Of a DNA stretch of 64,000 nt, positions 11,548-22,797 are shown in pieces. The notes beneath the pieces were generated by a model, which did not search any database, had not been told where the DNA came from, and saw only the letters and a list, made by a program, of their open reading frames with translations. The DNA is from Cyanobacteria bacterium REEB459 (GTDB lineage: Bacteria > Cyanobacteriota > Cyanobacteriia > Phormidesmidales > Phormidesmidaceae). Within the stretch, counting starts at the first letter, position 1. The number at the start of each line of letters is the position of its first letter. A program made the position numbers and the translations under genes. The stretch spans positions 1 to 64,000 of the forward strand of contig JAGWXD010000002.1 in assembly GCA_018970085.1 (NCBI GenBank), written 5' to 3'.

Positions 11548-12240
11548 TCAATCTTGAAGGTCAACCCGATCGCGCTGGCGTTGCAAATTCAGTTCCAGTT
11601 CCACCAATTGCCCTAGTTGCGCAGTTAAGGTTTCGACTCGCTGACTAGCCTGCCATTTACGATGCAGGGCCGCCCGGGCCAGGTCTTCCCGGTGGCGTTG
11701 CAAAGCCAGGTAAGCCACCCGCCGCCAGCTTTCCACCTCAGCCTGGGTTGCCTGCTGGTCAGTCAGAACCGCCTGGTAAGCGACGGCGATGTCTGCCATG
11801 GCCTGGTGAAAGGTGCGCAGGGCCTGGTCTGGGGAAGTGGTATGGCGACTGGCTTGATTTAGACGCCGAAACTCTGGTCGGTTGAGCTGCTCCAGGGGCA
11901 GGCCAAAATTAGTCAGTTGGGGGCTCTCTGCTCGACCGGTTTTGCACCAGGTGGCAAAGTGTTCGCAGTTGTTGAAAAAGAGGTCATACTGCTGTTCTCC
12001 CAGACGGCTTTCGGCCCGACCCATCACCACCTCTACCGGATCAGCCACCCTATGACCCACCAGCTGTACCGGCCTACCCCAAGAGAAGGTATCAAAACTG
12101 GTGCGAGCGACCAGGGCCTCATCACCATTTTTACGATAGTGAATAACGGTACCATCGCCGCAGTCAATACCATGGTGCTGGTAAACACCATGAATACCCG
12201 CGAGGGGCCGCAGAACGTAAATTTGATCGGCCCTGGCCAT
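11548..12240 (-). CDS. LRAT-domain (NlpC/P60-like) protein with coiled-coil tail
   Basis: The N-terminal half has the lecithin:retinol acyltransferase fold: an early HHGIDCGDGTVIHY segment with the catalytic His, and FFNNCEHFATWC carrying the catalytic Cys. The C-terminal half (about residues 140-230) is Gln/Arg/Leu-rich and predicted to be coiled coil. LRAT-fold proteins in bacteria are thiol hydrolases or acyltransferases, and the substrate here is unknown. The start at 12240 has AGGAG upstream. The gap to the divergent DUF305 gene is 230 bp. Confidence 0.88.
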   Translation of the reverse strand: MARADQIYVLRPLAGIHGVYQHHGIDCGDGTVIHYRKNGDEALVARTSFDTFSWGRPVQLVGHRVADPVEVVMGRAESRLGEQQYDLFFNNCEHFATWCKTGRAESPQLTNFGLPLEQLNRPEFRRLNQASRHTTSPDQALRTFHQAMADIAVAYQAVLTDQQATQAEVESWRRVAYLALQRHREDLARAALHRKWQASQRVETLTAQLGQLVELELNLQRQRDRVDLQD

Positions 12241-12470: not shown

Positions 12471-13142
12471 ATGCGATTACCCAAACGATCCTTCGCCGCG
12501 ATCGCCGGTGTTAGCCTGGCCGCTGCTGGTGCCATCACCGTTGCCTACCTGGCCTCACCCTCCAGGGCCAATTCCCTAGGGCAACTGGGCCGCCTGGGCT
12601 GGCCCATGCCCCTAGCCCAGGGCCACCACGGGGGGATGATGCCAATGATGCAGGTCAACAACGAGTTTGAGTTTCTCAGCCTGATGATTCCCCACCACCA
12701 GGAAGCCATTGATACCGCTCAACGGGTGTTAGAATTCAGCGATCGGCCTGAGATGCGGGAGTTTGCCCAGGCCATTATTACGGTGCAAACCGCGGAAATC
12801 AAGCAAATGGAAACCTGGTTAGGAGAGTGGTATCCAGGCCAGAAGACCAATCTCACCTATAGGCCCATGATGGGTGATCTCAGTCAGTTAAAGGGGAATG
12901 CCCTGGATCGAGCCTTTTTAGAAGGTATGGTGATGCACCATCAGGAAGCGGTGATGATGGCGCAGCATCTGGTGTACCACGGCCTGGTTAAACATCCGGC
13001 GGTCCAGCCCTTTGCTCAGAACATCGCCAATACCCAACGGCAGGAAATTGCCCAGATGCAGACCTGGCTGCAGGATTGGTATGGGGTTAGCACCACGCCC
13101 TGTCCTATGCATGGCTATGGGTCAAAATTACCGGGGACGTAA
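12471..13142 (+). CDS. Secreted DUF305 protein
   Basis: The first 33 residues are a signal peptide or membrane anchor (basic start, then AAIAGVSLAAAGAITVAYLA). Two copies of the DUF305 helical unit follow. Each has a His/Met-rich motif, MIPHHQEAIDTAQ in the first and MVMHHQEAVMMAQ in the second, plus many Met residues (MMPMMQ). The family is ferritin-like in fold and often found with copper or metal stress genes; metal binding here is an inference from the His/Met content. AAGGAGG sits 9 bases before the ATG. No copper gene is adjacent. Confidence 0.92.
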   Translation: MRLPKRSFAAIAGVSLAAAGAITVAYLASPSRANSLGQLGRLGWPMPLAQGHHGGMMPMMQVNNEFEFLSLMIPHHQEAIDTAQRVLEFSDRPEMREFAQAIITVQTAEIKQMETWLGEWYPGQKTNLTYRPMMGDLSQLKGNALDRAFLEGMVMHHQEAVMMAQHLVYHGLVKHPAVQPFAQNIANTQRQEIAQMQTWLQDWYGVSTTPCPMHGYGSKLPGT

Positions 13143-13473
13143 TTTTCCCTAATCTATTCCCATTGCCTTACTCGGTTACAAAGATCCGGAGATAGCGGTC
13201 ACCGGAGCCGGGGGCGTTGCCAAATGCCTGATTAATAGCTTTAGCTAAAACGCTTAGGACACGGTTGATCGATCATTTTTATGTCTTCTAGTAAGAGACA
13301 AGTCTGGCCGTTACGAGACCTAAAAAGCGAATACCAGGGGGGCGTTCTGGCTCGTCGTTCCAGGGTATCTTTTCATAATCCATTCCCATCGTACCGATAG
13401 GGTAGGAGGGGCTACTGACTAAGGACCTTTGAACCATTTGGTCTAATCTAAAGGGAACCACCTTAATCATTTA
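13143..13473. other. Intergenic region of 331 bp
   Basis: No complete gene is visible. On the minus strand 13168-13272 is open for 34 codons and ends in NAPGSGDRYLRIFVTE before a stop. Its codon use resembles neighbouring genes, but it has no start codon, so it may be a decayed gene tail or chance. I cannot identify a promoter with confidence. Confidence 0.3.
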
Positions 13474-14460
13474 GTGCAAACCATTGCCATGTACGACGAT
13501 GAGCAGCTCCAAAAATTGCTGACTCAGCTCCAGCGCCAGTCCCCCCCCTTACCTCCCCTGGTGCGGCAGAAGTTACTGTCGCGGCTATTGGGCTATATTC
13601 AGCAGTCCCCTGCCCTCTGGTGGGATAGTCACCAGGATTATCCTGCGGCTCTGAACAAAACCCTGGAGTGGGTTTGCAACAACCTGGAGAAATTTGATCC
13701 TGGAGATCTAGCCCCATCTACCGCCCTGATCAACTGGGTCAACGGCCATCTAAAGTGGCGTATTCTCGACCTGAAACGTTCCCGCACCTTGGGTTCTGAA
13801 GACGATAGAACCAATAAAGACATCAATAAAATTAGACAGATAGGGCTGAGGCCTGTTGAGTTAGACAAAGCCCTGGCCGATGATCAGGGCAACCAGACTG
13901 CCCAGGACACAAGGGCACCTGACCCTGACCAGGGAGGAGCATCTTTGCTGGATCGCTGGATTGAACAGCTCCAGCAGCACCAGCGGCAAAACCTGGGCAG
14001 GGAGATTCGTCGCTACCTGGAAACCGATCCCGATGGGCTGTTGCAGGGGTGTAGCCCTCGCAATTTACCGGATTGCCATTGTGGAGAACTAACCCGGCGG
14101 ATACATCTTGCGGATCCCCCTGAAACAGTGCGAGACGTTGCCAAAGCCTTTAACCTATCTGAACAGACCCTTTACACCCACTGGCGGACAAAATGTTTGC
14201 CGATGCTTCAGATCATTGCCCTCAGGCACGACCCCGAGGTTAAGGCCTATGCCCAACAAGACCCCAATCAGAAGCTGAAGGGATGCAATCTGGCAGGACT
14301 GGCAGATTGTCACTGCGGTACCCTGGCCCAACACCTACTGCTGTCAGAACAACCCCTCACCCTGAAGGCTCTGGCTAAGACATTAAAGGTCAGGGAATCG
14401 GATTTGACCGATCACTGGCAAAACCGATGTCTGCCTGAGCTAAAGGCCTTTCGGCTGTAG
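13474..14460 (+). CDS. Sigma-70-like regulator with duplicated Cys/His-containing C-terminal repeats
   Basis: The 328-residue protein resembles a cyanobacterial group of sigma-factor-like proteins encoded next to DUF1822 and CHAT genes. Residues 85-104 (INWVNGHLKWRILDLKR) resemble sigma region 2. After an acidic low-complexity linker (about 135-155) come two related repeats of about 68 residues, 178-245 and 256-324. Each has the pattern GC....L.DCHCG.L followed by a helical TVRDVAKAFNLSEQTLYTHW-like helix-turn-helix and CLP. The two Cys/His clusters could bind metal. It is the first gene of the 13.5-23.1 kb cluster, 37 bp before the DUF1822 gene. DNA binding and sigma activity are inferred, not shown. 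Confidence 0.75.
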   Translation: MQTIAMYDDEQLQKLLTQLQRQSPPLPPLVRQKLLSRLLGYIQQSPALWWDSHQDYPAALNKTLEWVCNNLEKFDPGDLAPSTALINWVNGHLKWRILDLKRSRTLGSEDDRTNKDINKIRQIGLRPVELDKALADDQGNQTAQDTRAPDPDQGGASLLDRWIEQLQQHQRQNLGREIRRYLETDPDGLLQGCSPRNLPDCHCGELTRRIHLADPPETVRDVAKAFNLSEQTLYTHWRTKCLPMLQIIALRHDPEVKAYAQQDPNQKLKGCNLAGLADCHCGTLAQHLLLSEQPLTLKALAKTLKVRESDLTDHWQNRCLPELKAFRL

Positions 14461-14497
14461 CTATACCGATTGAGACTTCACTTACAAAGAAAGGATT

Positions 14498-15445
14498 ATG
14501 ATTGGCCAAGACCTGCAGAAAATCACCATTCCCCTAGACCAGACCGGCTTTGAGCAGGCCGATCGGCTGTCTTCCCAGCAGCCTACCCTGGAGCAGGGCA
14601 AACGGGTATACCTGAATACCCTGGCGGTGTGGGCCGTCCACACCTATTTGGGCTGGTTAGGAATTGAATCTGAGCCATCCTGGGGCGATAGCGGCCATGC
14701 CAGCCTGGCCACGGTCATGGATGGGGCCGATTTGGTGGTGCCAGGGGTGGGCCGGTTGGAATGTCGTCCGGTGTTACCGGGCATGGCATCCTTTACTATT
14801 CCCCTGGAGGCGAGTTTTGATCGCATCGGCTACGTCGCCGTTCAGTTCCATGACTCCCTGGAGTTCGTCGATCTGATCGGTTTTCTCGAACCCTTACCGG
14901 AGGACGCTCCTGCCCTGGAACCACCCCTGGTCTACCTCGATGACCTGCTGCCTCTAGAAGCGCTCCTTAACGTTCTACACCCCGTCAATCGATTACGCCA
15001 GTGGTTAGATAGCACCTTTGATGCTGCTCCATGGCAACCCACCGCTTCCCTGGTGGCCGCCACTCGCAGCGCGGCCTCTACTCAGAAACAAAGGACCATG
15101 CCCCTGCCCTCTGCGGATCAGCGGATGAGTCGAGGAAAAATCATAGCCATGGGGGAGGTGCCCCAGCAGTCGGTGATTTTGGCCCTAGAGGTGATAGCCA
15201 TGGCTGAGGATGCCCAGAGCCTTGAGGTGCGGGTACAGATCTATCCCCACCGAGAGGCCAACCAGTTACCCCGTCAGTTGCGTATTGCCATTCTCGACCA
15301 GGTGGGTACAGTTCTATCGGAGGCTACCACCGGCGATGAGGAGCGATTTATTAAACTGGAACTGGTGGGCTGTCAACCCAGGGAATACTTCAGTGTATGC
15401 CTGACCTTGCAGGGAAAAAGTGTTATTGAGGAATTTATTACCTAG
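14498..15445 (+). CDS. DUF1822 family protein
   Basis: The N-terminal half contains the DUF1822 signature around residues 33-58, KRVYLNTLAVWAVHTYLGWL, followed by a beta-rich region with VPGVGRLECRPVLPG. The C-terminal part from about residue 215 looks like a separate beta domain. There is no signal peptide or membrane segment, so it should be cytoplasmic. The family is mostly cyanobacterial, has no known biochemical function, and commonly sits between a sigma-like gene and a CHAT gene, as here. An adaptor or regulatory role is my inference. An AAGAAAGGA stretch precedes the ATG. Confidence 0.85.
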   Translation: MIGQDLQKITIPLDQTGFEQADRLSSQQPTLEQGKRVYLNTLAVWAVHTYLGWLGIESEPSWGDSGHASLATVMDGADLVVPGVGRLECRPVLPGMASFTIPLEASFDRIGYVAVQFHDSLEFVDLIGFLEPLPEDAPALEPPLVYLDDLLPLEALLNVLHPVNRLRQWLDSTFDAAPWQPTASLVAATRSAASTQKQRTMPLPSADQRMSRGKIIAMGEVPQQSVILALEVIAMAEDAQSLEVRVQIYPHREANQLPRQLRIAILDQVGTVLSEATTGDEERFIKLELVGCQPREYFSVCLTLQGKSVIEEFIT

Positions 15446-15546
15446 AAATTTTAGTGAGTCATGCTCTAAAGTAAATGCACCAAGATCTAACTAACCAGGG
15501 GTCGCTAGACCATGGGGCAAACATCAGGGAGAGGACGTAAGCACCT

Positions 15547-18225
15547 ATGGCCACCGTCAGGTTAATTATCCGGAGGCAGACCAGTGACCCAAACTCGGGA
15601 TTTCGCGTAACCCTGGATGCTCGAGATTTTAACCATGACGATATGGAAGGTACCCTGCCGCCCCTACCCCCCAGCCTGGAGGAAGCACTGGCAGCCTGGC
15701 GCAGCGCCTATGGAGCTCAAGAGGAGGTGCGATCTCACTGTCGCATTGCCCCCGGGGCCGTTACCCGACAATCCATTCGAGACATTAACGAGCTAGCGGA
15801 AGCCCTGGAGCAAAACTTTAACGCCTGGCTCCGATCTACTGATCGGGGTTGGGTGCGCATCCGGGAATTACTGGTCCGTATTGCCCCGCAGGACCCCCAA
15901 CTATTGCTCGACTGCGGCAATCACCCCGACCTCAAGCGCCTGCCCTGGCAAGAGTGGGAGTTGTTCACTCAGTACTACCATCGAGCCGATCCAGCTCTAC
16001 GCATGGTCAACGACTCCCGCCAGCCCTTACCGGACTACCCCCCGCCCCGCAGTACCAAGGTAAGAATTTTGGTGGTGGTGGGCGACAGCACCGGCATTAA
16101 CGCAACCCAGGATCTGGCCTGCGTTACCCGACTGCAGAGCAAAAACCCCAAACGGGTAGAGGTGGTGTCCCTGTGGCAGCCCACCCCCACAGACCTGCAA
16201 CAGGCCCTGGAACAATCTCCCGGTTTCCATGTCTTCATCTATGTCGGCCATAGCCGCAGCCGGGAAGATAGTCAGGTCGGCTGGCTATTGCTGAACTCCC
16301 AGGATGAACTCAGCATTCGTGACTTTCGCCTAGTCATGAGACAGGCCATCCAGAGGGGACTACAACTGGTGATTCTGAACTCCTGCGATGGGTTAGGCCT
16401 GGCCCAGCAGTTAGCTAACCTCGACCTACCCCGTTGCGTAGTCATGAAAGAACCTGTCCCCGACGAAGTCGCGGTGGAGTTTATTGATCGGTTCTTTCGC
16501 GCCTTCGTAGAAGAACACCAGCTCCTGCAGGGGGCCGTACGGCAAGCCCGCCATGGGTTGGAATCCTTCAACAGCCGGTACTCGGAGGTAACCTGGCTAC
16601 CGACGGTGTGCATTAAGCAAAATACTCCGCCCCTGACCTGGCAGGCCCTATTGAATAGTTGCAACCCCAAGAAAGCTCCCTGGTTATCCAGGCGGCTGGC
16701 AGCAGGGGCAGTAGCCGGGTTGGCGGTACTGGGGGGAGTCGTCTGGACGATCAGACCGATAATAGTTTCCCTACAGGAACAGCTGATCCAGCCAAGACTT
16801 TCGGTGCCGCCGGAACAGCTGATCAGTGCAGGGGATAATCCCAACCTGGAAGGCAGCCCCCAACTGAGCGGTGACTACGCCCAGCTTAAGCAGCAGGGAC
16901 TACAGGCTTTTATTAAGGGTGACTATGTCCTCGCTCGAGATACCTTCGACCAGATTCGTATCCAGGCCAAGGCCCAGTACGCTAACTTTGCTCATGATCG
17001 CCAGAGTTCTGAATTCCAAGCGGCCCTAGCCGCCCTGCAAGACCCTACGGTTTTGATCTACCGTAACAATGCCGAGGCCCGCCGCCGCCATACCACGGGA
17101 AAACCCATCTACACCATTGCAGCGGCGGTGCCCCTAACCACCAGCAGCGGTACCCCCTTCGACGTGGGTCGGCAAATGCTCTACGGCATCGCCCAAGCCC
17201 AGGATCAGTATCAAGACAGAGGCCTGGAAGTGGTGATCGCCAACGATCACAACGATCCCCAGCAGGCCGCGGCGGTCGCCCAGGCTATTACCCAGTTTGA
17301 GCAAGATGGACGTAAGGTTCTTGCCGTTGTTGGTCACTATATTAGCGCCAGTACCTGCGAGGCCCTGAAACAGAAATACAACGAAGCTCACTTGGTGGTG
17401 GTATCCCCCCTCAGCACCGTTGCCGATATCCGCCGCAGCTGTGGCCCCTCCATTTGGTTTTTCAGAACCACCTCCTCTACCCGTATCGAAACCCGTACCT
17501 TGGTTAACCACCTGGTGAAAAGAGGATTAAATGGTCCTAATCCATCGGTGGCGATTTTTTATCGCAAGGGGGAGTTCTACAGTGACGATCTGTACAAGGA
17601 ATTTCAACTGGCTTTGGATGGGGAAGGCATCCCTATTGCCCAATCCTTTAATCTGGATGCCCCATCCTTTAACGCGACCCAGGCCCTAAATTCTGTAGCG
17701 GCTGTCAATGCCCTGGTGGTGATTCCTGATGGTAGAAATACCAATAGCCAGGCTTTCGACCGGGCCCTAGAGGTGATTCGGGCCAACGCTGGGAGGAAAA
17801 TGGTACTTGGCTCTAATCCCCTATACAACCAGAAAATTGTTGAGCCTGCGGGAGGGTTATCCAATCTGCAAAATATCCTGTTTATCGCCACTGATTGGCA
17901 CCCCAAGTGCGCTGACACCAACTTTGTCAAAGAAACGGAGAAGAAATACTGGTTTGGTGGTGTTAACCGCACTACCGTGCTTTCCTATGAAGCCATTCAA
18001 GCCCTACTGCCCACCCTGAGAGAGGGGGTTACCTCAGAACAAATTCGTCAGCAACTTAACAACCGGGATGTCAATGGCAGTGCCCCTCGCAGCCGGGTCT
18101 TTGGTAAGGCCAAAACCATCAGCTTTGACGATAACGGTGACCGGAAGGAAATCCAGGAACGGCTTCTCGCCACCGTGGGCAACGATTTTAACAATCCCTT
18201 TGTGGTGGTAGGAGATTGTCCGTAG
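15547..18225 (+). CDS. Transmembrane CHAT protease-receptor fusion
   Basis: This 892-residue protein has three parts. Residues 170-355 form a CHAT (caspase-like) peptidase domain with the catalytic pair visible: His235 in IYVGHSRS and Cys280 in ILNSCDGLG. Residues 385-407 (AAGAVAGLAVLGGVVWTI) form one membrane helix. After a short TPR-like helical pair (about 435-475), residues 510-885 match the type 1 periplasmic-binding (Peripla_BP_6/ANF receptor) fold, with the pattern VVIANDHNDPQQAAAVAQA and LAVVGHYISAST. With the CHAT part inside the cell, the receptor would face the periplasm and could pass a ligand signal to the protease. Both catalytic residues are present. The substrate is unknown. 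It sits 101 bp after DUF1822. Confidence 0.88.
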   Translation: MATVRLIIRRQTSDPNSGFRVTLDARDFNHDDMEGTLPPLPPSLEEALAAWRSAYGAQEEVRSHCRIAPGAVTRQSIRDINELAEALEQNFNAWLRSTDRGWVRIRELLVRIAPQDPQLLLDCGNHPDLKRLPWQEWELFTQYYHRADPALRMVNDSRQPLPDYPPPRSTKVRILVVVGDSTGINATQDLACVTRLQSKNPKRVEVVSLWQPTPTDLQQALEQSPGFHVFIYVGHSRSREDSQVGWLLLNSQDELSIRDFRLVMRQAIQRGLQLVILNSCDGLGLAQQLANLDLPRCVVMKEPVPDEVAVEFIDRFFRAFVEEHQLLQGAVRQARHGLESFNSRYSEVTWLPTVCIKQNTPPLTWQALLNSCNPKKAPWLSRRLAAGAVAGLAVLGGVVWTIRPIIVSLQEQLIQPRLSVPPEQLISAGDNPNLEGSPQLSGDYAQLKQQGLQAFIKGDYVLARDTFDQIRIQAKAQYANFAHDRQSSEFQAALAALQDPTVLIYRNNAEARRRHTTGKPIYTIAAAVPLTTSSGTPFDVGRQMLYGIAQAQDQYQDRGLEVVIANDHNDPQQAAAVAQAITQFEQDGRKVLAVVGHYISASTCEALKQKYNEAHLVVVSPLSTVADIRRSCGPSIWFFRTTSSTRIETRTLVNHLVKRGLNGPNPSVAIFYRKGEFYSDDLYKEFQLALDGEGIPIAQSFNLDAPSFNATQALNSVAAVNALVVIPDGRNTNSQAFDRALEVIRANAGRKMVLGSNPLYNQKIVEPAGGLSNLQNILFIATDWHPKCADTNFVKETEKKYWFGGVNRTTVLSYEAIQALLPTLREGVTSEQIRQQLNNRDVNGSAPRSRVFGKAKTISFDDNGDRKEIQERLLATVGNDFNNPFVVVGDCP

Positions 18226-18428
18226 AAAGCCTCGAAGAATCATAACCTTTTTCAAATATCCCGTAAGGATAGTGAGTAGTTTATCGGAGCCTTATGGTTC
18301 TACTGAAAAAATCATAACGGTCCTATTCAAGACTGTTATCTCGGTAGATAAGGCCTTGGCTATAACCCATTAGCTCAACCGATAGCTTCATTAGTCGTTC
18401 TCATTCTTACAGGTCGAGGAGTAAGGCT

Positions 18429-18638
18429 ATGTTTTGTTTTCAGGAAACAGACGAATGGTTTCCTCAAGTCGGAGAAGGTACCATCGATGAGTTTGACAAC
18501 AGTAAACTGCGAGTCAAAGCACTCGGTAGCATCTGGAATGCAATTCTAGATAGCTCTTGGGGTGCTGCCCCCCTAGCTTCAGGACAAAAGGTCCAGGTGA
18601 TAGGCCGCAAAGGTATTCGTTTGATTATTGCACCTTAA
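18429..18638 (+). CDS. NfeD-type OB-fold protein, stand-alone
   Basis: The 69-residue product matches the C-terminal OB-fold domain of NfeD proteins: GEGTIDEF, then VKALGSIWNAIL, then ASGQKVQVIGRKGIRLII. NfeD proteins usually also have membrane helices and work with SPFH/stomatin proteins; here only the soluble domain is present. An SPFH gene lies 1.8 kb downstream with an RTX gene between. GAGGAG precedes the ATG. A role in anchoring or regulating the SPFH protein is inferred. Confidence 0.75.
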   Translation: MFCFQETDEWFPQVGEGTIDEFDNSKLRVKALGSIWNAILDSSWGAAPLASGQKVQVIGRKGIRLIIAP

Positions 18639-18933
18639 ATATAACTCAACTACCGATTTCCTATTTCTTCACCAATAGGCTGGGTTTAACCAGACCTGAA
18701 CAGTGAAACCTGGATAGGTAAATTCTAATTTGTTTCAATTCTCCTCTAGTTGCATAGGCTCCGCTGGGGCCAGAACTATGTCTTAGTGACAGTGCCCAAG
18801 TCATCCTAGAAACTGCCCGAATCGGAGCAATAAAGGAGTTGGGCATGGGATGCATTGCCCGTAATTATTGGCTGGGGAAACTCACTAAATAGAGACTCCA
18901 GCACCTTTAAACACCTTTTTTAAGGAGCTATCA
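18639..18933. other. Intergenic region with a possible 15-codon leader ORF
   Basis: Within this 295-bp gap, 18845-18892 is a 15-codon frame with AAAGGAG eight bases before its ATG. It could be a leader peptide for the RTX gene, which starts 41 bases later with its own TTAAGGAG. There is no family match, so translation is uncertain. Confidence 0.25.
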
Positions 18934-20358
18934 ATGGTATTTGTTTTAGGGACATCTGGGAATAACTTTATTAGTCCGTTTAGCGTATCCCCTGGGGTAT
19001 TGGGTATCCCGGGGGCCGGGGCCGACACGATTAATGGCGGGGCCGGGGCTGACACCATGGATGGTGGGGATGGCAACGACACCTATATCGTTGATAATGT
19101 TGGCGATATCGTCAAAGAGAACTTCGATGACGCCCTGGGTGGGGTTGATACGGTGCTGGCCTCCGTCAGCTATTCCCTGGGGCCAGGAACCTTTGGCAAA
19201 CAAGGGTTTGGTATTGAAAATCTGACCCTCACCGGCAGTGCCAATATCAATGCCACCGGTAATGCCAAAAACAATGTCCTAATCGGTAACAGCGGCAATA
19301 ACATCCTGGATGGCGGGGTCGGGGCTGACACCATGGATGGTGGGGATGGCAACGACACCTATATCGTTGATAATGTCGGCGATATTGTCAAAGAGAACTT
19401 CGATGACGCCCTGGGTAGCATTGATACGGTGCTGGCCTCCGTCAGCTATTCTCTAGGGCCAGGAACCTTTGGCAACCAAGGATTTGGTATTGAAAATCTG
19501 ACCCTCACCGGCGGTGCGAATATCAATGCCACCGGTAATGCCAAAAACAATGTCCTAACTGGTAACAGCGGCAATAACCTCCTGAATGGCGGGGCCGGAG
19601 ACGACACTATCCTTGGCAGTAACGGTAATGACACCCTCAATGGTGGCACGGGTGTGGATACGGCTGACTACAGCGCTCTGGCCGCACCCGTGACCCTAGG
19701 AGCCTTTGGAGTGCTGACCAAGCTAGGCGGGGTTGATACCCTAATCGCGATCGAGCGAATTGTGGGCAGCAGTGGTAGTGGCGATACCATCAACCATGGC
19801 GGTATCGGCTCTCCTGCCACCGGCACCATCACTAACCTGGCCACCGGCATGGTGACGGTGAACGGCAGCACCCCCCTCCCCCTGTCTTTTACAGTGAGTC
19901 AATTTGAGAACGTGATCGGCAGCGCTTTTGCTGACACCATCACTGGCAATGGCGCCGCCAACCTCCTGGATGGCGGTGCGGGAAACGACACCCTCAACGG
20001 TGGGGATGGCAACGATACCCTGATGGGTGGCACAGGCAACGATATTCTTACCGGCGGCACGGGCAACGATCTCCTGATAGGCGGCGGGGGTAACGATATC
20101 CTCACCGGTGGAGCTGGGAATGATCGGTTTCGATTCCTCTCAATTTTCGACCGAATTGATGTGATTAAGGACTTCTCCTTTAGCTCTGGTAATCGAGACT
20201 TTATTGAGATCAGTGCCGCTGGTTTCGGTGCCTCTTCCCTATCCCAATTCAGTTACAACTCGTCGACGGGGGCTCTAGCTTTCGTAGGTACTCAGTTTGC
20301 CACCATAGAAAATAAACCCCTAGGCTTTGCCGTTAGCCTTGATGTTGTGTTGGTTTAG
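18934..20358 (+). CDS. RTX calcium-binding (hemolysin-type repeat) protein
   Basis: The 474-residue protein is built from glycine/aspartate nonapeptide repeats of the type GGXGXDXUX, for example GGAGADTMDGGDGNDTYIVD, which fold as a calcium-binding beta-roll. A second block near residues 325-400 has several more repeats ending in GGAGNDRFRF. There is no N-terminal signal peptide, which fits export by a type 1 secretion system through the C-terminus. The C-terminal 75 residues are typical of such proteins. No enzymatic domain is visible, and no type 1 exporter is in the window. TTAAGGAG precedes the ATG. Confidence 0.93.
   Translation: MVFVLGTSGNNFISPFSVSPGVLGIPGAGADTINGGAGADTMDGGDGNDTYIVDNVGDIVKENFDDALGGVDTVLASVSYSLGPGTFGKQGFGIENLTLTGSANINATGNAKNNVLIGNSGNNILDGGVGADTMDGGDGNDTYIVDNVGDIVKENFDDALGSIDTVLASVSYSLGPGTFGNQGFGIENLTLTGGANINATGNAKNNVLTGNSGNNLLNGGAGDDTILGSNGNDTLNGGTGVDTADYSALAAPVTLGAFGVLTKLGGVDTLIAIERIVGSSGSGDTINHGGIGSPATGTITNLATGMVTVNGSTPLPLSFTVSQFENVIGSAFADTITGNGAANLLDGGAGNDTLNGGDGNDTLMGGTGNDILTGGTGNDLLIGGGGNDILTGGAGNDRFRFLSIFDRIDVIKDFSFSSGNRDFIEISAAGFGASSLSQFSYNSSTGALAFVGTQFATIENKPLGFAVSLDVVLV
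19037..19588 (+). repeat. 276-bp tandem duplication inside the RTX gene
   Basis: Two consecutive units repeat with a period of 276 bases (92 codons). Matching landmarks are the segments starting at 19048 and 19324, which share long stretches of identical DNA, including synonymous positions. Differences are few, so the duplication looks recent or homogenised. Boundaries are approximate. Confidence 0.85.
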
Positions 20359-20362
20359 TTTA

Positions 20363-20393
20363 TTTTTTGCCCCGTAAAACGGGGCAGAAAAAT
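20363..20393. other. Strong stem-loop between RTX and SPFH genes
   Basis: GCCCCGT-AAA-ACGGGGC (20369-20385) is a perfect 7-bp stem flanked by a T-run before and an A-run after, which extends the stem. It starts 10 bases after the RTX stop. The U-tract is on the wrong side for a classic intrinsic terminator on the + strand. It may separate the two transcripts or protect an RNA end. Confidence 0.5.
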
Positions 20394-20441
20394 AAGCTTT
20401 TAGCGGGGAAGGTTGAAAGAATTCACAAAAGGAGAAAAGCC

Positions 20442-21215
20442 GTGGAAATCATTATCATAACGGCAGTACTGATCGGCCTGTTAATCTTTTTTCGTGTATG
20501 TAATCAGTGGGATAGACATGTTCTATTTGCCCTAGGACGCTTTTCAGGTGTAGCTGGACCTGGAGTGTATTTCTACATACCGATTATTCAAGACAAACGG
20601 ATTGTAGATACAAGAATTGCCACCTACACGGTGCCGTTACAAAAGGGACTAACCCGGGACAACATTCCCGTTGAAGTAGATGCGATTGTTTTTTATAGGG
20701 TGGATAACGTTAAAGATTCGGTCCTTAAGGTTGACAATTATCACAATGCTACCCAACTAACCGTTCGCTCAGCTATCCGGGATATGGTCGGAAAGTCTAC
20801 TTTAGATGAGCTTTTGTCCCAAAGAGATCAGATTGGTCAGATTGTTCGGGAACATACAACAGAGTTAGTTGTTCAATGGGGGGTTTTAATCGTAACGGTT
20901 GAAATCAAAGACGTGATTGTTTCGAAAGAATTAGAAGATGCGATCGCCCGTGAAGCTGCTGCAGAACGGGAAAAAAGAGCCAGAATTCTTCTAGCCCAAT
21001 CCGAGGAATTGTCGGTTGATTCCATGGTCAAGGCCTCAGAAAAATATTCCCATGATCCCGTAGCGTTACAACTCCGCTCCATGAATATGCTGTACGAAAT
21101 GTGTATGGAAGGCAAGTCCACCATGGTTTTTGTACCTACCACAAATACAGGCAATGGTATGCCAGGAATTATTGGAGTTGAAGGTGTTAAGGATTTAATC
21201 GAGCGGAGAAGTTGA
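20442..21215 (+). CDS. SPFH/band 7 (stomatin-like) membrane protein
   Basis: The product has an N-terminal membrane segment (EIIIITAVLIGLLIFF) followed by an SPFH domain containing PGVYFYIPII, DNIPVEVDAIVFYRV and the later VEIKDVIVSKELEDAIAREA, characteristic of stomatins and slipins. The C-terminal third is helical and drives oligomerisation. I chose the GTG at 20442 because AAAGGAG lies 9 bases upstream. The longer frame would start at a TTG inside the stem-loop at 20369-20385, which is unlikely. These proteins form membrane rings and often pair with NfeD proteins; an NfeD OB-fold is encoded at 18429. Confidence 0.9.
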   Translation: MEIIIITAVLIGLLIFFRVCNQWDRHVLFALGRFSGVAGPGVYFYIPIIQDKRIVDTRIATYTVPLQKGLTRDNIPVEVDAIVFYRVDNVKDSVLKVDNYHNATQLTVRSAIRDMVGKSTLDELLSQRDQIGQIVREHTTELVVQWGVLIVTVEIKDVIVSKELEDAIAREAAAEREKRARILLAQSEELSVDSMVKASEKYSHDPVALQLRSMNMLYEMCMEGKSTMVFVPTTNTGNGMPGIIGVEGVKDLIERRS

Positions 21216-21396: not shown

Positions 21397-22797
21397 ATGA
21401 GAACCCGTTCTAGCCAACGTCGCCTTCCACCCCCTATTGTTTTTGTGGGGCTTGGCCTGATCCTATTTGTTACCGTACCAAAAGTCGCGCCCCTCCTTCA
21501 AATCTGGAAATCTTCTGACCTCAGATCTGCCCTCTCCTCTCCGTCATCAACCCAGTCCCCCAAGCTCGAAGACCGCCTGAGTATGGGTGAAAAACTACTG
21601 ATAACCACGGGAGCAACTGCAGCCAAGCGGGAGGGAGTTGAGGCCTTTGCCAGGCATGACTACGCCAGGGCGGTGAAGAGCTTTCAGCAATCCCTGGTGC
21701 AACAGCCCAATGACCCGGAGGCCTTAATTTACCTGAATAATGCCCAGATCGGTAACAGCTCACCTCTAAAAATAGCCGTCAGCATCCCGATTGGCACCAA
21801 TATCAACGTTGCCCAGGAAATTTTACGGGGAGTGGCCCAGGCCCAGCATGAGGTTAATCAGCAAGGTGGCCTTAAGGGTCAAGGATTGCAGGTGCAAATT
21901 GCTAATGATGACAATAACCCAGAGATTGCCCGACAAGTTGCCCAGGCCCTGGCGGGGAATGGAAATATTCTGGCGGTTGTTGGTCATAATGCCAGCAATG
22001 CTTCTCTGGCAGCTGCGCCCGTCTACCAACAGGCCGGTTTGGTGATGGTTACACCAACCAGTTTCGCCAACCTGCTATCTAACTTTGGCAGCTATATTTT
22101 TCGTACGGTGCCCAATATTCGCTCAATGGCGGCACCTCTAGCGGCCTATATTGTTCAAGAGAAGCGCTTAAAGACCATTGCCATCTGCTACGACTCTCTC
22201 TCCCCCGATACGGCTTCCTTTCGGGATGAATTTGTCGCCACCTTGGTGCGCCTGGGGGGACAGCAGGCAGACACGATTTGTGATTTTGCCGCCCCCAGCT
22301 TCAACCCAGCTCTAGCGATGAATGAAATTCGCGGGAGCCAGGCTGACGTAGTTCTACTGGCTCCCCATATTGATCGGATTAATCAGGCGATCGCCCTAGC
22401 CCAGGCCAACCAATCAGGATTACCGCTCTATGGCACTACCACCCTATACACCATCCAGACCCTGCAGCAGGGGGGACAGGCTATCAACGGGTTGGTTCTT
22501 CCGGTCCCCTGGCTTCCGACGGAACCGTTTACCAGTAACGCTCGCCAACTATGGAAGGGCAGTGTCAATTGGCGCACGGCCAGTGCCTACGATGCTACCC
22601 AAGCCGTTATTGCAGGCTTGCAACAAAATACCAGTCGGAATGGACTGCAGGCAGTCCTGCGAGACCCCAGCTTTTCAGCCGTCGGTGCCAGCGGTAAGGT
22701 CCAGTTTCTAGCGACCGGCGATCGCATCGGCGAGATAATCTTGGCGAAAGCCGTGGTGAACCGGCGGAGCGCTGGGTTTTCCCGGTTACAACCCTAA
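21397..22797 (+). CDS. Membrane-anchored type 1 periplasmic-binding (receptor) protein
   Basis: This 466-residue protein has an N-terminal membrane anchor (PPPIVFVGLGLILFVTVPKV), a short TPR-like helical pair (AARKR-type segment EGVEAFARHDYARAVKSFQ) and a Peripla_BP_6 domain with LKIAVSIPIGTNINVAQEIL and ILAVVGHNASNASLAAAPVY. The order TM, TPR-like, receptor is the same as in the C-terminal part of the CHAT fusion at 15547, so the two are related, this one without the protease. No ABC permease is next to it, so it is more likely a sensor than a transport component. AAGGAG precedes the ATG. It may compete with or assist the CHAT fusion (inference). Confidence 0.88.
   Translation: MRTRSSQRRLPPPIVFVGLGLILFVTVPKVAPLLQIWKSSDLRSALSSPSSTQSPKLEDRLSMGEKLLITTGATAAKREGVEAFARHDYARAVKSFQQSLVQQPNDPEALIYLNNAQIGNSSPLKIAVSIPIGTNINVAQEILRGVAQAQHEVNQQGGLKGQGLQVQIANDDNNPEIARQVAQALAGNGNILAVVGHNASNASLAAAPVYQQAGLVMVTPTSFANLLSNFGSYIFRTVPNIRSMAAPLAAYIVQEKRLKTIAICYDSLSPDTASFRDEFVATLVRLGGQQADTICDFAAPSFNPALAMNEIRGSQADVVLLAPHIDRINQAIALAQANQSGLPLYGTTTLYTIQTLQQGGQAINGLVLPVPWLPTEPFTSNARQLWKGSVNWRTASAYDATQAVIAGLQQNTSRNGLQAVLRDPSFSAVGASGKVQFLATGDRIGEIILAKAVVNRRSAGFSRLQP

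Follow-up and report, generated by a model that had tools for sequence, protein, structure and literature searches.

Cell death and phage defence are the usual context in which caspase-fold proteases of bacteria are considered. One gene in the stretch of DNA analysed here (64,000 nucleotides, hereafter the window) encodes a CHAT protease domain and a periplasmic-binding domain in a single chain, and it raises the question of whether an extracellular small molecule could govern such a protease directly. We consider it probable that the protease is gated by its sensor. The identity of the ligand, the likely substrate and the transcriptional output are proposed with lower and differing degrees of confidence, as set out below.

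The protease half

The open reading frame begins with an ATG at position 15547 and ends with a stop codon at 18225 on the forward strand, exactly where the sequence-only reading had placed it, and encodes 892 residues; when its bases are shuffled 200 times, the longest stop-free run is 269 codons. Pfam assigns CHAT to residues 188–342 (E 9.4e-11; 42.1 bits against a cut-off of 24) and Peripla_BP_6 to residues 530–849 (E 1.2e-15; 58.4 bits against a cut-off of 31.7), and the earlier claim that both domains are carried by one chain is thus borne out above the cut-off of each family. Absent from that reading were a TPR-like linker, an N-terminal domain of the separase/Csx29 type, and an upstream cassette comprising a sigma-like gene and a DUF1822 gene.

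The catalytic pair identified earlier is confirmed. His235 (codon 16249–16251, forward strand) lies in the motif YVGHS and Cys280 (codon 16384–16386, forward strand) in the motif NSCDG. Both residues are identical in all 26 full-length relatives and invariant across an alignment of 32 CHAT halves, including eight CHASE2-type proteins, and the motif aligns with that of SAVED-CHAT. Because the catalytic residues are invariant, the predicted protease is likely to be intact.

The protease half (residues 1–372; 15547–16662, forward strand) was modelled alone because the binding domain filled the fold search carried out with the whole chain. The model, which covers residues 1–378 and was built with 32 sequences, has a mean pLDDT of 88.5 and a pTM of 0.89, and it displays the caspase-haemoglobinase fold of clan CD. 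Fold searches match it to the protease region of separase (PDB id: 5fby; Z 24.1, 3.9 Å over 316 residues), to the Craspase TPR-CHAT protein Csx29 (PDB id: 8d9g; Z about 20–21.5, 3.3 Å over 289 residues), and to SAVED-CHAT (PDB id: 8tl0; Z 21.5, 2.0 Å over 184 residues). The separase and Csx29 matches span residue 1 to about 361–373, and therefore the region preceding the Pfam CHAT boundary belongs to the same fold. An alpha+beta N-terminal domain is present in the model ahead of the protease, and the residues before the Pfam boundary would constitute the companion, non-catalytic half.

Membrane topology and the sensor half

Residues 384–402 (16696–16752, forward strand), with a mean hydropathy of 2.03, form the sole membrane candidate in the chain, which agrees with the earlier report of one helix between protease and binding domain, there placed at residues 385–407. 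No other hydrophobic segment is found, and CHAT is therefore not preceded by a signal segment. Lys and Arg are commoner in the 15 residues that precede the helix than in those that follow it in 20 of the 26 relatives, with five ties and one reversal, a bias that upholds the assignment of the two domains to opposite sides of the membrane. A predicted orientation with CHAT inside and the substrate-binding domain (SBP) outside fits this bias and also fits the module swaps described below, which involve CHASE2, a kinase, and a standalone anchored SBP. In the full-length model the membrane region has low confidence. The helix is followed by a TPR-like helical linker at residues about 442–516 (16870–17094, forward strand), in which the model places helices at residues 442–456, 460–480, 488–497, and 500–515. 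Residues Y460, A463, I504, N508, and A509 of the linker are conserved, and weak TPR matches are found in relatives.

A CHAT domain beside one membrane helix recalls HetF, a cyanobacterial CHAT protein with a single membrane helix that acts in cell division, and by this comparison CHAT might serve mainly to dock partners at the membrane in a structural or divisome role. We regard such a role as highly improbable, given a score of 16.3 bits with the NCBIfam HetF model against a cut-off of 1200, a HetF scheme (CHAT, membrane helix, TPR) that has no comparable sensor domain, and cassette partners that differ.

The extracytoplasmic substrate-binding domain occupies residues 520–892 (17104–18222, forward strand). 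Its two-lobed fold is matched by a leucine-type binding protein (PDB id: 4mlc), which superimposes on residues 520–887 with Z 30.0 and 2.9 Å over 322 residues. The pocket was mapped by aligning the 26 relatives with E. coli LivJ and LivK (locus L092). In LivJ, Ser79, Thr102, Glu226, and Tyr202 line the amino acid pocket, and the acidic residue Glu226 holds the amino group of the ligand. The equivalent of Ser79 is Ser600, a serine in 26 of 26 relatives, and that of Thr102 is Thr624, a threonine in 16 of 26 relatives including the window protein. The position of Glu226 is taken by Asn757, asparagine in seven of 26 relatives and otherwise varied, and that of Tyr202 by Asp728. The comparison with amino-acid receptors that the sequence-only reading had recommended thus supports a pocket in part: the serine and threonine are kept, but the acid is replaced. 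Given this replacement, and the variation at the position within the family, one cannot count on an ordinary amino acid as the ligand, and the designation "amino-acid receptor" is not established.

According to their PDB titles, 4obb is an Anabaena variabilis binding protein with a 2-oxo acid and 4nv3 is its N280D mutant with valine. By our reading of the alignment, Asn280 of that protein appears to correspond to Asn757. Since asparagine stands at the Glu226 position in a protein crystallised with a 2-oxo acid, a 2-oxo-type ligand is plausible here, and we infer that a 2-oxo acid or similar compound is no less plausible a ligand than an amino acid.

Alternatively, the binding domain may no longer recognise a small molecule, and CHAT may be regulated by its contact with a protein or a component of the cell wall. 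The family-variable change from Glu226 to Asn757 and the change from Tyr202 to Asp728 would agree with such contact, as would the use of this fold by peptide receptors such as the natriuretic peptide receptors, which also match the sensor half. The invariant equivalent of Ser79 and the retention of the Thr102 equivalent in the window protein argue against it, however, as does the asparagine at the Glu226 position of cyanobacterial 4obb, crystallised with a 2-oxo acid; we consider contact of this kind unlikely. A small-molecule sensor that would control the CHAT protease is the reading retained in what follows.

The conserved cassette and its proposed output

The receptor-protease gene closes a three-gene cassette on the forward strand. 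The first gene (13474–14460) encodes a 328-residue putative ECF sigma-70-like regulator having a region-2-like N-terminus and two C-terminal HTH-like repeats, and the second (14498–15445) encodes a 315-residue DUF1822 protein (PF08852, E 2.1e-45), a putative substrate or sigma-binding partner. The intergenic gaps are 37 bases between the sigma-like and DUF1822 genes and 101 bases between the DUF1822 and CHAT-SBP genes. Because promoter and terminator signals within 13100–19000 are no more numerous than in shuffles, operon structure rests on this spacing and on conservation. DUF1822 lies directly upstream of CHAT-SBP in 20 of the 24 loci with a full-length CHAT-SBP gene and is accompanied by a sigma-like gene in 14 of them, the counts having been made with profiles that include genes from some of the counted loci; Pfam independently found DUF1822 at the loci tested. 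DUF1822 is absent near CHAT-SBP in four loci, namely L078 and three from Moorena, one of which (L005) is truncated by the end of its sequence. At CHAT-CHASE2 loci DUF1822 is found in eight of eight and the sigma-like gene in seven of eight. In both CHAT-CHASE2 loci checked a DUF928 gene follows (L042:10927-11694 and L049:9781-10536); it is a possible fourth cassette gene and is absent from the SBP version in the window.

The window's genome contains a single copy of DUF1822, the one adjoining the CHAT-SBP gene, and a homology search against solved structures found no relative of the DUF1822 protein. For the window copy alone the assignment of the first gene as ECF sigma-like is weak, with HTH matches in Pfam that lie below cut-off, and ECF models are reached through family profiles. 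The family profile matches the ECF factor RpoE (PDB id: 2q1z, E 8.9e-4), and seven of 19 family members match the sigma70-ECF model TIGR02937 (best E 2.9e-6). The two C-terminal HTH-like repeats of the window protein (DCHCG...TL...W...C) are reduced to one in most relatives.

These components suggest a pathway in which the SBP, located either beyond the cytoplasmic membrane or within the thylakoid lumen, would close on a small ligand or ligand-bearing protein, and the change would be relayed through the TPR-like linker and the single membrane helix. The cytoplasmic CHAT protease would thereby be switched on, probably by dimer rearrangement, and would cut the product of another gene of the operon, the DUF1822 protein being the likeliest candidate; cleavage would free the ECF-sigma-like regulator encoded by the first gene and so change transcription. 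For this entire chain of events, from ligand through protease and DUF1822 cleavage to sigma-like release, the balance seems to us close to even and tilted slightly against. The earlier reading was fair in describing signalling that needs no separate kinase, but it overlooked the likely output, which is the partner protein and the sigma-like regulator of the cassette.

The closest tested precedent, by analogy, is the type III-E CRISPR system, in which the ECF factor CASP-sigma is inhibited by Csx30, and Csx30 in turn is cleaved by the CHAT protease Csx29 (PMC10028731). The two systems share the CHAT fold over residues 1–361, a partner gene, and an ECF sigma gene, the product of the partner gene being the substrate in Craspase. 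Two of the 19 sigma-like family members match the type III-E CRISPR sigma model NF041236 (best E 5.4e-4), and the family thus reaches that model weakly. Craspase is triggered by RNA through Cas7-11, whereas the window protein has a membrane sensor, and the likeness of DUF1822 to Csx30 is a hypothesis about role, namely that DUF1822 might stand where Csx30 does.

The main competing explanation is a receptor for conflict or cell death, in which the sensor would trigger CHAT to cut itself, many proteins, or both, the sigma-like gene being a secondary output. It is close to the autoproteolytic activation proposed by Kaur et al. for EACC1 and EACC2 systems; their 2021 paper (PMC8195603) proposes auto-peptidase activation for a constant caspase module having ECF sigma and DUF1822 partners, and SAVED-CHAT, a defence protease, is among the closest folds found here. 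A nutrient-type sensor facing outward would nevertheless be an odd phage detector, the conserved pairing with a sigma-like gene is better suited to regulation, and a PADLOC defence search of the cassette proteins returned a weak MAD1 match (E 0.048) to the sigma-like protein and nothing else. A primary function in conflict or cell death is accordingly rated as rather unlikely.

If the cassette works by regulated cleavage of its partner, an ordinary nutrient-type receptor in cyanobacteria would act through a caspase-fold protease whose target is a sigma factor. The result would be a pathway leading from sensor to protease to transcription that three genes are enough to test, and a role would be found for DUF1822, so far a cyanobacterial family without an assigned function. 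The most specific form of the proposal is a one-chain, ligand-gated transmembrane protease that would translate the signal of a metabolite outside the cell, perhaps an amino acid or a 2-oxo acid, directly into ECF-sigma-dependent transcription by cutting DUF1822, its sensors (SBP, CHASE2) being interchangeable. We offer this form tentatively, as possible without being likely; if true, it would represent a type of bacterial signalling parallel to one- and two-component systems.

Distribution, sensor exchange, and related systems

Under strict settings, matches were found in 22 of 292 cyanobacterial genomes, a figure that is a lower bound. Full-length CHAT-TM-SBP proteins occur in 17 of the 22, the window's genome included, and the remainder match the sensor half only. 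Further CHAT-SBP proteins are found in the window's genus and family and in Moorena, where three tandem CHAT-SBP genes lie within 15 kb (L008:1812-15370), one of them with its own sigma-like and DUF1822 genes; this triplet is a local receptor expansion. One candidate, L040 (G005), was not counted as a full-length relative, because a TGA interrupts its frame and its N-terminal portion is not CHAT.

Proteins of the SBP and CHASE2 types have the N-terminal half in common and are encoded in the same kind of cassette. On a tree of protease halves they require three changes, at least two of which are forced by well-supported branches, and the sensor has therefore been exchanged or lost more than once. 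The window protein groups on this tree with one from the same genus (G048) and one from another family (G075). Sensor variants also include kinase-SBP and standalone SBP proteins. Four loci (L088–L091) in which the sensor half alone is matched were rejected as CHAT relatives, and none was counted; the two scanned with Pfam, L088 and L089, are Ser/Thr kinase-TPR-SBP proteins. Judged by domain content, the TPR-SBP sensor is thus coupled in cyanobacteria to enzymes of two types. Nostoc is reported to have Ser/Thr kinases that bear periplasmic solute-binding domains (PMC1262709); there too a solute-binding domain is joined to a signalling enzyme, the enzyme being a kinase instead of a protease.

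Receptor-caspase proteins equivalent to that of the window have been described (PMC7159879, PMC8195603, PMC3501461, PMC8283722), and the idea is not new. In the systems of Kaur et al. (2021; PMC8195603), an alpha+beta N-terminal domain and a caspase are followed by a variable C-terminus (CHASE2 is named and small-molecule-binding domains are mentioned), with ECF sigma and DUF1822 as neighbours. These EACC2-caspase systems, as presented there, resemble the window locus in protease layout, variable C-terminus, and neighbouring genes, but the accessible text names no Peripla_BP_6 sensor for the family. The window cassette shows a DUF1822 neighbour, an ECF sigma neighbour (weak for the window copy alone), and a variable C-terminus on a constant module.

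EACC1 two-gene systems (Kaur et al., 2020; PMC7159879) include chains in which a caspase, a membrane helix, and an extracellular periplasmic binding protein are joined, as in the window protein. They are mostly actinobacterial, however, and are paired with the EACC1 membrane protein, whereas the window partners are DUF1822 and the sigma-like gene. No 5' partner of the EACC1 type, with a conserved single membrane helix, is present: the 5' partner is the DUF1822 protein, which has no convincing membrane helix (best hydropathy window 1.42).

Among cyanobacteria, a 2012 survey lists one metacaspase with ANF_receptor and one with CHASE2, and argues the topology of the CHASE2 protein in the same way (PMC3501461); a 2021 survey lists eight orthocaspases with Peripla_BP_6 (PMC8283722). 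In these proteins, too, a cytoplasmic caspase-fold protease is joined to an extracellular receptor domain. They are catalogued as metacaspases or orthocaspases, the term "CHAT domain" being absent from the 2021 text and "CHAT" from the 2012 text, whereas the window protein matches Pfam CHAT. Literature searches yielded neither a CHAT-CHASE2 combination under those names nor experiments on the function of such receptor-proteases. The receptor-caspase organisation is thus already sketched in the literature, under "caspase" and EACC2, and the window protein is a well-supported member. Beyond these descriptions, the present analysis assigns a separase/Csx29-type fold to the entire protease half, provides a tree of sensor swaps and a reading of the binding pocket, and connects the sigma-like family, weakly, with the CRISPR type III-E sigma.

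Downstream in the window, a membrane-anchored TPR-SBP protein (21397–22797, forward strand; membrane segment 14–32) is a paralogue of the sensor half, to which it is 32% identical, and a possible accessory sensor. A search with the receptor finds only two standalone TPR-SBP genes in the 3.2 Mb of the window's genome. In three lineages such genes recur no more than a few kb away from a CHAT-SBP gene, and their products may be accessory or competing sensors. Examples near CHAT-SBP genes are L080:6062-7420 (reverse strand), L084:7277-8001, L085:1-663, L086:1-631, and L087:6950-8001. Other neighbours in the window are an LRAT-domain protein (11548–12240, reverse strand; Pfam E 4.1e-23) whose C-terminal helical tail is like PspA, and, just downstream of the receptor gene, an RTX nonapeptide-repeat protein with duplicated blocks (18934–20358, forward strand). 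Between the RTX and standalone SBP genes lies an SPFH/Band 7 gene (20367–21215, forward strand), whose product has one N-terminal membrane helix, and a Band 7 gene is also found near the G048 orthologue (L038:2188-3048).
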